Source of the DNA: a virus
Strand: one strand, 5' to 3'
Virus record (IMG/VR): IMGVR_UViG_3300014497_000021
Coordinates: 1 to 31,778 of that record
Length of the DNA: 31,778 nt
This document shows positions 21,122-24,113 of the stretch, one piece after another. The notes under the pieces were generated by a model that saw only the letters and a program-made list of their open reading frames with translations, did no database searches and was not told the DNA's origin. Position 1 is the first letter of the stretch. The number at the start of each line of letters is the position of its first letter. The translations under genes were made by a program, and so were the position numbers.

Positions 21122-21777
21122 CGCGCACCGAACGGGTGCTCGCCCGCCGGTGGAAGCCGTTGGCTCTCCTCGCGTTCCTGCTCGCCCTCACCGGCGCCGT
21201 CCTGCTCGTCTACGTGCGCGTGCAGACCGAGGCATCGCGCGCCGACCAGCTCGCCGCCGAGGCCGACCTACGCGGCAGCGCGGTGTCCACGCTCGCGACC
21301 GACGTGCGGGTGCTGCGCGCCCAGATCAAGGCCAGGGGCGGCACGCCGGCCGCACCGGATCCGACCAAGGCCGTCAAGGATCTGCCCGACCGGGCGGCCG
21401 TGCCCGTCCCGATCCCCGGCCCGCAGGGACCCAAGGGCGACAAGGGCGACCCGGGCAAGGCCGCCCCCACGATCACGCCCGTACCCGGCCCCTCGGGGGC
21501 GGTCGGCGCCACCGGGCCCCAAGGACCGCAAGGCGAACCGGGGGCCGACTCCACCGTCCCCGGACCCCAGGGCCCGCAGGGCGAGAAAGGCGACCGAGGC
21601 GATCCCGGCCCAGCCTGCCCCGACGGCTACCGCCTCCAGGCGCCGTCCTGGGACCCGGACGCCCTCGTCTGCAGACGCGACGGAGCAGCCGACCCGAGCC
21701 CCACCCAGGAGCCGCAGAGCAAGGGCCTGCTCGGCCTGGCCGCGCTCACCATGACCGCCCGATACCGACGCCTGTAG
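21118..21777 (+). CDS. Membrane-anchored collagen-like protein, 219 aa
   Basis: ATG 21118 overlaps the previous stop. Residues 14-33 form one transmembrane helix (PLALLAFLLALTGAVLLVYV) after a basic N-terminus, followed by a helical stalk about 38-72. Then come Gly-X-Y triplets: residues about 101-113 (GPQGPKGDKGDPG) and 124-165 (GPSGAVGATGPQGPQGEPGA, then GPQGPQGEKGDRGDPGP), collagen-like in composition and able to trimerise. It ends with a two-cysteine unit (C167, C185) and a short hydrophobic stretch. Collagen-like repeats are common in phage tail fibres, but here the membrane anchor and lysis context argue for a cell-surface protein of the lysogen or lysing cell. Confidence 0.75.
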   Translation: MTRTERVLARRWKPLALLAFLLALTGAVLLVYVRVQTEASRADQLAAEADLRGSAVSTLATDVRVLRAQIKARGGTPAAPDPTKAVKDLPDRAAVPVPIPGPQGPKGDKGDPGKAAPTITPVPGPSGAVGATGPQGPQGEPGADSTVPGPQGPQGEKGDRGDPGPACPDGYRLQAPSWDPDALVCRRDGAADPSPTQEPQSKGLLGLAALTMTARYRRL

Positions 21778-21874: not shown

Positions 21875-22630
21875 TTAGTCGTCGAGCTCGATGCGGAAGT
21901 CGACGATGGTGGTGTCGCCGCGGCGCACGATCGGGTGGGCGACCTCGACGATCCGGCCGGTGTCCGCGATGTGCTTGCGCGTGTACCGCAGGACCGGGAC
22001 GCCGGCGCCGATGCGGAGCGTCGCCGCCTCCAGTTCGGTGGGCATGGCTGCGGTGAACGACTCAGTGACCGCCGTGATGCGGATGCCCAGGGATCCCAGC
22101 TGCGCCCGGGTACCGCCTGGCCACGGCTCGTTGATGGGGTCGGCGACCGGGGTGTCCACCACGTCCGCCCACCGCACATAGCTGGTCGACATCTGAGTGG
22201 GCTGGTCGTTGTCGTAGAAGACGAAGTGGCGGGCGAGGAGGCGTTCACCGATCTCGCACTCGAAGAGGGCCGCGAGTTCGGCATCGGCCTGGACGCGCTC
22301 GAACCGCTTATCGAGCCGGTACTCCGACCAGCCGATGCCCTGATCCCTGGTGTACGGCGTCGACTTGGCGCCGGGCGTCTGCCGGTACCGGTCGGCCGGC
22401 ATGCGGTGGATGGCCGGGCGCTTGCGCACGACGGTGCCTGCGCGGGCCCGTGACTCGACGAGTCCCTCGTTTCGGAGGAGGGCGAGCGCGTTCCGCACAG
22501 TGATCTCTGAGACGTCGTACCGGGCGCAGAGTTCGGGAAGCGTGGGGATGCGGTCGCCGGGTTCGTACTCGCCGGACGTGATGCGATGCCGCAGGTCAGC
22601 GGCGATCCGCATGTACTCGGGCTGTGCCAC
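21875..22630 (-). CDS. GntR-family transcriptional regulator (HutC/UTRA type)
   Basis: 251 residues from GTG 22630. Residues about 1-72 form the GntR winged helix-turn-helix (MAQPEYMRIAADLRHRITSG, then YEPGDRIPTLPELCARYDVS and EITVRNALALLRNEGLVESR, the family hallmark). The rest is a UTRA ligand domain (ERLLARHFVFYDNDQPTQMS, TSYVRW, ITAVTESFTAAMPTELEAAT, LRIGAGVPVLRYTRKHIADT). The open frame continues to ATG 22675 and ATG 22726, but those extra residues would lie over operator-like repeats and start the protein before the normal beginning of the fold, so 22630 is preferred; GGGGG sits nine bases upstream. It is divergent from the operon at 22773 and probably represses both directions, like KorSA-type regulators of Streptomyces elements. 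Confidence 0.88.
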   Translation of the reverse strand: MAQPEYMRIAADLRHRITSGEYEPGDRIPTLPELCARYDVSEITVRNALALLRNEGLVESRARAGTVVRKRPAIHRMPADRYRQTPGAKSTPYTRDQGIGWSEYRLDKRFERVQADAELAALFECEIGERLLARHFVFYDNDQPTQMSTSYVRWADVVDTPVADPINEPWPGGTRAQLGSLGIRITAVTESFTAAMPTELEAATLRIGAGVPVLRYTRKHIADTGRIVEVAHPIVRRGDTTIVDFRIELDD

Positions 22631-22659
22631 GGCGATGCCCCCGCTTCCACTGATCGCGT

Positions 22660-22679
22660 CAATCTGTATACGCATACTC
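22660..22679 (-). promoter_or_regulatory. Operator-like site 1 for the GntR regulator
   Basis: Read on the minus strand this is GAGTATGCGTATACAGATTG. It matches site 3 (22730-22749) at 15 of 20 positions in inverted orientation, and its core GTATAC is the type of short palindrome bound by HutC-class GntR proteins. It lies 30 bases upstream of the chosen regulator start. Confidence 0.6.
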
Positions 22680-22710
22680 TCCCGTCCCACTTGACCAGCG
22701 CCAATCCCGG

Positions 22711-22749
22711 CAATCTGAATACACAAAGCAAGTATCCGTATTCAGATAA
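22711..22749. promoter_or_regulatory. Operator-like sites 2 and 3 (inverted repeat) in the divergent promoter region
   Basis: ATCTGAATAC (22713-22722) and GTATTCAGAT (22738-22747) are perfect 10-bp arms separated by 15 bases. Site 3 extends to AAGTATCCGTATTCAGATAA (22730-22749), which matches site 1. They lie 24 to 62 bases upstream of the + strand operon start. I see no confident -35/-10 pair, but the AT-rich arms are likely to overlap promoter elements. Confidence 0.65.
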
Positions 22750-22772: not shown

Positions 22773-23111
22773 ATGCCCGAGTCGGGTCATACGTGGCGCA
22801 AAGCCTTCAAGGGCGAGCCCATCGAAGCAGCCCATGTCCGCCTGTGGACACGCGGCCGGGTGAAGCACCCCGACGCCCCGCCCATCGCGAACGAGCTGTA
22901 CGTCGCTGTCCTCAAAGCCGGTGCCGACGTCATCACGATGACCCTCTCCACCGCGGGCAGCCGCATCCGCATCACCGCCGAAGGCGCCGAGCCGCTCCCC
23001 GTGACCTTCAGCCACGGTCCCGGCTGGATCCTCGTCAACGGCCTCGCCCACCTGTCCGGGATCACCACCGACGAGTGCGGCATCTGGGCCCAGTTAGGGA
23101 TCGAGCGGTGA
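22773..23111 (+). CDS. Small degenerate GHKL/HATPase-like protein, 112 aa
   Basis: ATG 22773 with CGGGGGAA seven bases upstream. The order of elements resembles the short ATP-binding (RsbW-like) proteins common in Streptomyces: ANELYVAVLKAGADVITMTL at the N-box position, STAGSRIRITAEGAEPLPV for the strand and D-box region, and GPGWILVNGLAHLSG for the G-box, ending DECGIWAQLGIER like the 'vWA.L' end of that family. But the N-box asparagine and the D-box aspartate are absent, so ATP binding is doubtful. It heads a three-gene operon divergent from the GntR gene and is probably under its control. The family link is my pattern reading and needs a profile or structure search. Confidence 0.55.
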   Translation: MPESGHTWRKAFKGEPIEAAHVRLWTRGRVKHPDAPPIANELYVAVLKAGADVITMTLSTAGSRIRITAEGAEPLPVTFSHGPGWILVNGLAHLSGITTDECGIWAQLGIER

Positions 23112-23317
23112 GGCGCGAGCCCCCGCCCGCCACCGAGCTGGGCTACGAGGCCTACTCGGGCCGCGCCTGCTGCTGGTGCGGCAAGAAGCTATGGAGCGGC
23201 GCCGTCAGCGCCGGCATCTCGCGCGGCCAGCAGGGCGCCGTCGTCCTCGACATCGAGGTGTACGCCTGCCCGTGCTGCGCCGTCCCGGAGACCAGCAACT
23301 CCGAGGAGGAGCACTGA
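23108..23317 (+). CDS. Cysteine-rich zinc-ribbon-like small protein, 69 aa
   Basis: GTG 23108 overlaps the preceding stop (GTGA). Sequence features: an acidic N-terminus, then RACCWCGKKLW (C21, C22, C24) and, after a strand-turn-strand (AGISRGQQGAVVLDIEVYAC), CPCCAVPETS (C54, C56, C57). The two cysteine clusters about 30 residues apart give a zinc ribbon. It is a member of the operon under the GntR-associated promoter. Function not recognised; such proteins are frequent in Streptomyces mobile elements. Confidence 0.65.
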   Translation: MRREPPPATELGYEAYSGRACCWCGKKLWSGAVSAGISRGQQGAVVLDIEVYACPCCAVPETSNSEEEH

Positions 23318-23496
23318 TGTACGAAGGCGTCCGCATCTGCTGCCGCTGCCAGCAAGGCATCCTGCCCGGCGAACCCTGGGAGGAGAACACCCACGACCGG
23401 CCGACCAGCGCGCCGCTCATCCTGTTCAGCCATAAGGGCGGCGTCTGCAAACAGCAGCCCCGCCAGGAGACCCCCGTCCGTTCCTGCACCCCGTGA
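23317..23496 (+). CDS. Cysteine-containing small protein, 59 aa
   Basis: ATG 23317 overlaps the previous stop (TGATG). MYEGVRICCRCQQGILPGEP gives C8, C9 and C11. Further cysteines appear at C44 in KGGVCKQQ and near the end (SCTP). The spacing resembles a small zinc-binding unit like that of the preceding gene, and the two may be related or work together. Last gene of the three-gene operon, followed by two hairpins. Confidence 0.6.
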   Translation: MYEGVRICCRCQQGILPGEPWEENTHDRPTSAPLILFSHKGGVCKQQPRQETPVRSCTP

Positions 23497-23620: not shown

Positions 23621-23863
23621 CTACTCGCCGCCGAACTCCTCACGGCTACCGAGGTGTGGATCGTCGAACACCCGGACCTCCCACCACTCTTGGAAGACGT
23701 TCGGCTCGTCCTTCTTCGGGAGCGCGATGCGCCGCACCTGGAAGCCGGTGCCGAGCATCTCGGCACCTTCCATGAACTGGGTGACGATGCTGATGTCCTG
23801 GGTCAGGATGAGCTTCGTCTGTCGCGGATTGGCGCTGTAGCCACCGGTGCGGTCGTCAGGCAT
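23621..23863 (-). CDS. Hypothetical protein, 80 aa, second gene of a minus-strand operon
   Basis: Start ATG 23863 with GGGGGAGAAAG directly upstream; it overlaps the end of the upstream gene by 8 bases. The sequence has a beta-alpha-beta feel (NPRQTKLILTQDISIVTQFM, EGAEMLGTGFQVRRIALPKK, VFQEWWEVRVFDDPH) with an acidic tail. No family recognised. It belongs with the next gene and lies in the prophage-boundary segment. Confidence 0.6.
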   Translation of the reverse strand: MPDDRTGGYSANPRQTKLILTQDISIVTQFMEGAEMLGTGFQVRRIALPKKDEPNVFQEWWEVRVFDDPHLGSREEFGGE

Positions 23864-24113
23864 CTTTCTCCCCCTCGTCCTCATCCTCCTCGTCGACGGC
23901 CAGGAGCATGTCCTCGTAGAGGATGACCTCGAAGCCTTCGACGAAGGAGTCAACGCCGTCGGTGTCTCGTTCCCAGCGGTTCTTGAACTGCACGCCAAGC
24001 CCCAGGGTTCTGGCTGCCTTGACGGCCTCCATCGCTTCCTCGAAGGTGCTGGGGTAGATCTCCTTCAACACCGCCGGATTGACCTCGTAGCCCGACTCCT
24101 CGACCCAGCTCAT
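23856..24113 (-). CDS. Hypothetical acidic protein, 85 aa, first gene of a minus-strand operon
   Basis: Start ATG 24113 with GAGGGAAG upstream. The protein MSWVEESGYEVNPAVLKEIY is helical and strongly acidic, with STFEEAMEAVKAARTLGLGV and a final run LAVDEEDEDEGEKDA. The net negative charge could suit a DNA-mimic or a partner of a basic protein, but this is only composition. Divergent from nothing nearby; its promoter must lie in 24114-24326. No family recognised. Confidence 0.65.
   Translation of the reverse strand: MSWVEESGYEVNPAVLKEIYPSTFEEAMEAVKAARTLGLGVQFKNRWERDTDGVDSFVEGFEVILYEDMLLAVDEEDEDEGEKDA

Follow-up and report, generated by a model that had tools for sequence, protein, structure and literature searches.

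Among the described systems closest to the locus analyzed here are the single-domain anti-sigma factors RsbW, SpoIIAB and UsfX (GHKL type; Pfam family HATPase_c_2), and AbaA (OrfA), the product of a small HATPase-fold gene that lies divergent from a DNA-binding regulator in the WhiJ-BldB-AbaA loci of Streptomyces. Over-expression of abaA6 alone stops the sporulation of Streptomyces venezuelae and, in combination with iosA, mimics the loss of bldB (PMC10294661). In SspH (SCO1241), a HATPase-only pleiotropic regulator of Streptomyces, each of the single substitutions N54A and D84A abolishes function (PMC9137472). RsbW1 of Mycobacterium smegmatis lacks kinase activity yet binds SigF, and the kinase-negative RsbW3 is an anti-SigF antagonist that acts by binding RsbW1 (PMC7693655). 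Here we describe a prophage-borne relative of these proteins, denoted P1, that has lost the ATP site and is paired with a GntR regulator; as far as the literature searched shows, the GntR-P1 cassette is undescribed.

The window analyzed, the entire stretch of 31,778 nucleotides from the IMG/VR virus record IMGVR_UViG_3300014497_000021, spans late genes of a siphovirus-type Streptomyces prophage, with the terminase being nearest to those of phages Kromp, Dubu and phiSASD1 (57–58%), along with flanking host DNA. The host DNA beyond the prophage contains genes for tRNA-Met and two tRNA-Asn (a scan for non-coding RNAs against Rfam yielded tRNAs only) and encodes proteins matching those of S. viridochromogenes and Streptomyces sp. 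TRM68367 (76–90% protein identity). The cassette sits past the endolysin, holin-like and collagen-like genes and ahead of tRNA-Met, that is, at the end of the prophage, where the sequence-only reading had placed it. It consists of three intact, overlapping open reading frames on the plus strand (22,773–23,496): P1 (22,773–23,111), a 112-aa degenerate GHKL protein of the RsbW/SpoIIAB type; P2 (23,108–23,317), a 69-aa microprotein with a GTG start and the pattern CxxC...C(PxC); and P3 (23,317–23,496), a 59-aa microprotein with the pattern CxxC...H...C. These genes diverge from a minus-strand gene for a GntR/UTRA regulator (21,875–22,675; 266 aa from the ATG at 22,675). The P1 stop and the P2 start overlap by 4 nt (GTGA), and P2 and P3 overlap by 1 nt (TGATG); the coordinates, the overlaps and the Cys clusters of the two small proteins had all been read correctly from the sequence. 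In the vicinity of the cassette, the collagen-like gene (21,178–21,777), which encodes a Gly-X-Y repeat protein and adjoins the holin-like genes, is kept beside the cassette in several relatives. On the other side, two small overlapping minus-strand genes (23,621–23,863 and 23,856–24,113) converge on the trio; they have no family match and no relative among the loci compared, and are possibly additional accessory genes of the prophage.

None of the three proteins matched a family in Pfam, PHROGs or NCBIfam, and P1 was not found in annotated phage records. Relatives of P1 were identified in viral contigs (13 with a single-sequence query and 26 with a profile), in 17 Streptomyces genomes of the GTDB set and on two Streptomycetaceae plasmids, with 43–88% identity and nearly always over the full length; given this conservation, the P1 open reading frame is not a chance one. 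Strong scores were obtained in at least 14 of the 393 sampled Streptomyces genomes, a count that is a lower bound because few candidates were scored per genome. The AlphaFold2 model of P1 (pLDDT 89.7, pTM 0.85), built from an alignment of 28 sequences that left out plasmid-derived rows, yielded 18 Foldseek matches in the PDB at E ≤ 0.001, among which 16 were RsbW, SpoIIAB or UsfX (TMq 0.63–0.78), with complexes of UsfX, RsbW and SpoIIAB ranking highest, and the other two were the Leptospira response regulator LvrC. Sequence searches of the PDB returned Reelin and ankyrin, chance matches from which nothing usable could be drawn. No HATPase domain was detected at the Pfam gathering score in P1 or in the 30 relatives scanned. 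When Streptomyces genomes were searched with the P1 profile, the weak matches (E from 1e-6 to 1e-3) were HATPase_c_2 proteins in all 16 cases examined, and direct comparison of the P1 profile with HATPase_c_2 proteins using hhalign gave a probability of 98.35% and an E-value of 1.1e-14. The relation of P1 to RsbW comes from profile and fold comparison, not from strong pairwise similarity; the predicted fold is GHKL, specifically RsbW/SpoIIAB-like, and the structure prediction and fold comparison bear out the small RsbW-type outline discerned in the initial reading.

P1 shares with RsbW, SpoIIAB and UsfX the single-domain fold, the order of the elements, the N-box Glu (Glu41) and the GxG signature of the G2 box (Gly82-x-Gly84) but differs from these proteins in the nucleotide-binding site. 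In an alignment with 16 intact HATPase_c_2 proteins, Ala45 stands at the position of the N-box Asn, the Mg2+-binding residue (Ala in at least 90% of the relatives and Ser in the others), and the position of the D-box (G1) Asp, which contacts adenine, is occupied by Gly71 according to both mafft and hhalign, with no conserved Asp nearby; the lid is about nine residues shorter than in the intact proteins. Both catalytic-site losses noticed at the outset are therefore confirmed by the alignments. Ala69, picked by eye as the D-box equivalent, was dropped because all alignments give Gly71. P1 further differs from the RsbW-type proteins in the lack of a Pfam match and of an adjoining sigma factor or STAS gene. 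As judged from the alignments, the residues that hold Mg-ATP have been lost family-wide. SspH and P1 are both single HATPase-fold proteins of Streptomyces, but SspH needs Asn54 and Asp84, whereas P1 naturally lacks both equivalents; because either single substitution inactivates SspH, an ATP-dependent role of P1 is unlikely and, by this analogy, P1 most likely works without ATP. Non-canonical binding of a nucleotide by P1 could occur.

An orthologous, divergent GntR gene is located 83–158 nt from P1 in 41 of the 41 P1 loci. In the window, the regulator contains a GntR domain (Pfam E = 3.8e-19, 68.5 bits against a cut-off of 27) and a UTRA domain (E = 3.6e-14, 53.2 bits against a cut-off of 23.8), the combination found in GntR/UTRA (HutC-type) regulators. 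The link to a GntR regulator suggested by the sequence-only reading is thereby strengthened, whereas its notion of a fixed three-gene module fails: P2 directly follows P1 in 21 of the 41 loci and a P3-like gene in 12, and both recur behind other regulators. Regulators of the WhiJ-like, XRE and short GntR types precede P2 elsewhere, so that GntR-P1, and not the trio P1–P3, constitutes the fixed unit. Alternative downstream genes include DUF6415, or an unannotated gene for a protein of about 157 aa together with a methyltransferase. The inseparability of GntR and P1, while the downstream gene changes (P2, P3, DUF6415, the ~157-aa gene with the methyltransferase, or TfuA/YcaO), would be expected if P1 were a co-regulator that binds GntR, as an anti-repressor or a co-repressor, within a self-contained switch for which the downstream gene is the output; a small protein linked one-to-one with a regulator, we infer, often interacts with it physically. 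We consider this possibility rather doubtful, given that P2-type genes are driven by WhiJ-like, XRE and short GntR regulators without any P1 and that sigma factors or STAS proteins, not GntR, are the targets of the known P1 relatives.

The intergenic region contains a perfect inverted repeat, ATCTGAATAC-15-GTATTCAGAT (22,713–22,747), a putative GntR operator the left arm of which overlaps the −10-like hexamer of a promoter-like pair, TTGACC-14-CAATCT (22,691–22,716, plus strand), that would drive P1; this pair is not picked up by an Escherichia coli consensus scan and is read as a promoter from its conservation. Across 26 distinct sequences, the two arms covary and form 260 of 312 possible Watson–Crick pairs compared to 239 ± 4.5 in shuffled sets, with none of the 5000 shuffles being as good, although relatedness inflates such tests; one pair is G-C in 17 sequences and A-T in nine, with no mismatch. 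It is difficult to account in another way for changes that occur in pairs at the same columns. An additional operator-like half-site, CTGTATACGCAT (22,664–22,675), overlaps the GntR start codon, forms a direct repeat with the operator and, by inspection of the relatives viewed, varies in step with it (ATAC or GTAC type). From the palindrome and the half-site, we infer that GntR represses P1 and regulates its own expression. The spacing between the promoter-like hexamers is 17 or 18 in 37 of the 41 loci but 14 in the window copy, 3 nt fewer than 17, so that the operon in the window may be weakly expressed; the only other relative with a clearly short spacing (15), locus L032, has a frameshifted P1.

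The abnormal spacing in the window, the frameshift in L032 and the loss of the ATP residues could all be taken as signs that P1 is a decaying, functionless remnant of an RsbW gene. We give next to no credence to this explanation, which is already refuted at the level of the family. Over 300 pairs, dN/dS has a median of 0.287, a value indicative of purifying selection and, therefore, of maintenance rather than decay; 16–23 residues are invariant among 28–30 relatives, and the perfect GntR linkage, the covarying operator and the confidently predicted compact fold likewise speak against decay.

P2 contains six Cys residues (CCWC...CPCC), among which C21, C24 and C54 are invariant in an alignment with 20 relatives, usually accompanied by a fourth Cys; in P3 (CCRC...H...C), C8 and C11 are invariant and are mostly joined by the His and another Cys. 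Both proteins thus contain the two Cys/His pairs by which zinc ribbons are recognized, and the Cys patterns make the proposal that P2 and P3 are zinc proteins plausible, but family and fold searches did not add to it: the match of P3 to the Pfam family Zn_ribbon_11 (E = 0.0083, 16.2 bits) falls under the cut-off of 24, P2 matched no zinc family, and the P2 model showed no significant match to solved folds (best E = 1.7). In S. fildesensis (L031), a single open reading frame combines P2-like (profile-confirmed) and P3-like (recognized by eye) Cys clusters. In the set of 393 Streptomyces genomes, P2 was detected with strong scores in 44, compared to 14 for P1, and both were present in six; this co-occurrence (Fisher P = 0.002) is only indicative because the genomes are related. 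The idea that P2 and P3 are partners of P1 alone was rejected, P2 being common without P1. Where P2-type genes occur without P1, downstream of regulators of the WhiJ-like, XRE or short GntR type, they often follow a different CxxH/CxxC small protein. At eight such loci (L123, L126, L128, L130, L132–L134 and L136), P1 is replaced upstream of P2 by another conserved small protein (CxWH...ARxI...GSGPGG...FACxPCRE...LVPxADxP), the gene for which often overlaps the P2 start. After P2, a conserved, family-less protein of about 157 aa (LVDxGWHAFILHT) is encoded in L020, L024, L027, L028, L123, L138 and L139, in several cases with a SAM methyltransferase as well, and under three different types of regulators.

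A P2 homolog, gp27, is encoded also by the temperate Streptomyces phage Eastland, where the gp24–gp28 genes (an HTH protein and small proteins) occupy the same slot between the endolysin and the serine integrase; unlike the window cassette, the Eastland genes lie behind an XRE-type regulator and include no P1. In 24 of the 26 viral contigs, the cassette is preceded by a lysis gene at a distance of no more than 6 kb, and in the remaining two the upstream sequence runs out within 1.5 kb; in the prophage records that derive from genome projects, the contig ranges place P1 no farther than about 2 kb from one end. The attachment end of Streptomyces phages is the site of a regulatory slot with exchangeable contents, and the cassette has the attributes of a moron, namely, its own promoter-like element and regulator and a location outside the structural operon, at the lysis/attachment end. 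The position at the prophage end, the separate promoter and the exchange of small accessory genes among regulators would also suit a prophage module for anti-phage defense or superinfection exclusion in which the Cys-rich microproteins are the effectors. This role appears improbable: P1, P2 and P3 produced no PADLOC match, no defense genes were seen beside the relatives, and the cassette adjoins peptide biosynthesis clusters as well. The original suggestion of an undescribed regulatory or defense module accordingly holds inasmuch as no described family covers P1–P3, but its defense part is unsupported.

At nine of the 17 genome loci, no phage lysis gene was detected nearby, which indicates that the cassette occurs also outside recognizable prophages. 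Two P1 loci, on a plasmid of Streptomyces sp. NBC_00212 and in S. violascens, head TfuA/YcaO peptide clusters. Given these two loci together with the nine that lack a lysis gene, the role of P1 is not exclusively a matter of phage biology. In L015 (5,095–10,359) and L029 (4,107–8,490), GntR-P1(-DUF6415) precedes TfuA/YcaO genes accompanied by a possible precursor open reading frame of 45–63 aa, which suggests that the GntR-P1 pair controls a thioamide-type peptide pathway at these loci. In L023 (3,718–8,436), which shares the tRNA-Met site, the cassette is preceded by just a holin-like fragment and has apparently chromosomal neighbors, as if the rest of a prophage was lost and the cassette was kept. 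The persistence of the cassette where no lysis gene is detected could be accounted for by a selfish, addiction-like pair, in which P1 or P2 would be harmful if over-expressed, GntR would silence it, and the pair would be kept for stability; XRE-DUF397 pairs have been proposed as toxin-antitoxin systems (PMC6262351, PMC10364602). However, the known XRE-DUF397 and BldB data favor regulation over addiction, and no toxin family was matched in Pfam, PHROGs or NCBIfam; we deem addiction very improbable.

With the intact relatives of P1, the comparison leads back to AbaA. The intact HATPases retrieved with the P1 profile are divergent from WhiJ-like regulators with DUF397, or from XRE or GntR regulators, which is the AbaA arrangement, and one of the matches (L059) lies in an AbaA-type locus, with a WhiJ-like regulator containing DUF5753, a DUF397 neighbor and the HATPase. 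P1 differs from AbaA in having a GntR/UTRA regulator, in the loss of the ATP site, in being prophage-borne and in being followed by Cys-rich microproteins; the genes near P1 that were scanned with Pfam in the window include neither WhiJ (XRE-DUF5753) nor BldB (DUF397). We class P1 as a protein that works like AbaA but not as a member of the AbaA family because of the different regulator, the absence of DUF397 and the lost ATP site.

The explanation we favor, which we give an even chance of being correct, is that of a lysogenic-conversion (moron) cassette in which GntR represses a catalytically dead AbaA/RsbW relative that exerts its effect through binding to a partner in the host. The loss of the ATP-binding residues means that P1 probably acts through partner binding rather than catalysis, and "partner-binding switch", the function initially proposed, fits. 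Under the lysogenic-conversion scenario, GntR would bind the palindrome over the −10 region and repress the P1 operon until an effector of its UTRA domain relieves the repression and P1 is made. P1, needing neither ATP nor kinase activity, would then bind a component of the partner-switching or AbaA network of the host. The target would be a sigma factor, contacted directly, or else an RsbW/AbaA-type HATPase or a STAS protein of the host, for which P1 would serve as a decoy or a heterodimer partner; no sigma factor, STAS or HATPase partner is identifiable within the window. The binding would shift host development or secondary metabolism, with P2 and P3 as optional metal-binding adaptors or effectors produced from the same operon. 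The proposed P1 would resemble RsbW1 and RsbW3 of M. smegmatis in being an RsbW homolog that acts through protein binding without kinase activity; unlike P1, these are chromosomal sigma-factor regulators with no GntR, and RsbW3 itself belongs to the SigF regulon. A more specific version, which we offer tentatively, as something possible rather than likely, is that Streptomyces phages domesticated a host RsbW/AbaA-type regulator, now kinase-dead and switched by GntR, such that lysogens override the sigma-factor partner switching that governs sporulation or antibiotics by decoy or heterodimer formation, with the exchangeable metal-binding microproteins serving as adaptors.

P1 is a natural HATPase-only protein from which the ATP site has been removed and which is kept by selection, and thus separates binding from catalysis. 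It provides a direct bait for the partners of small HATPase-only proteins, such as AbaA and SspH, that are numerous in Streptomyces genomes. P1 and P2 serve as markers of a regulatory slot with exchangeable contents in Streptomyces temperate phages, a slot the genes of which are now annotated as hypothetical. If the proposed mechanism is true, it would connect prophages with the way in which antibiotic producers control their development and their natural-product genes.
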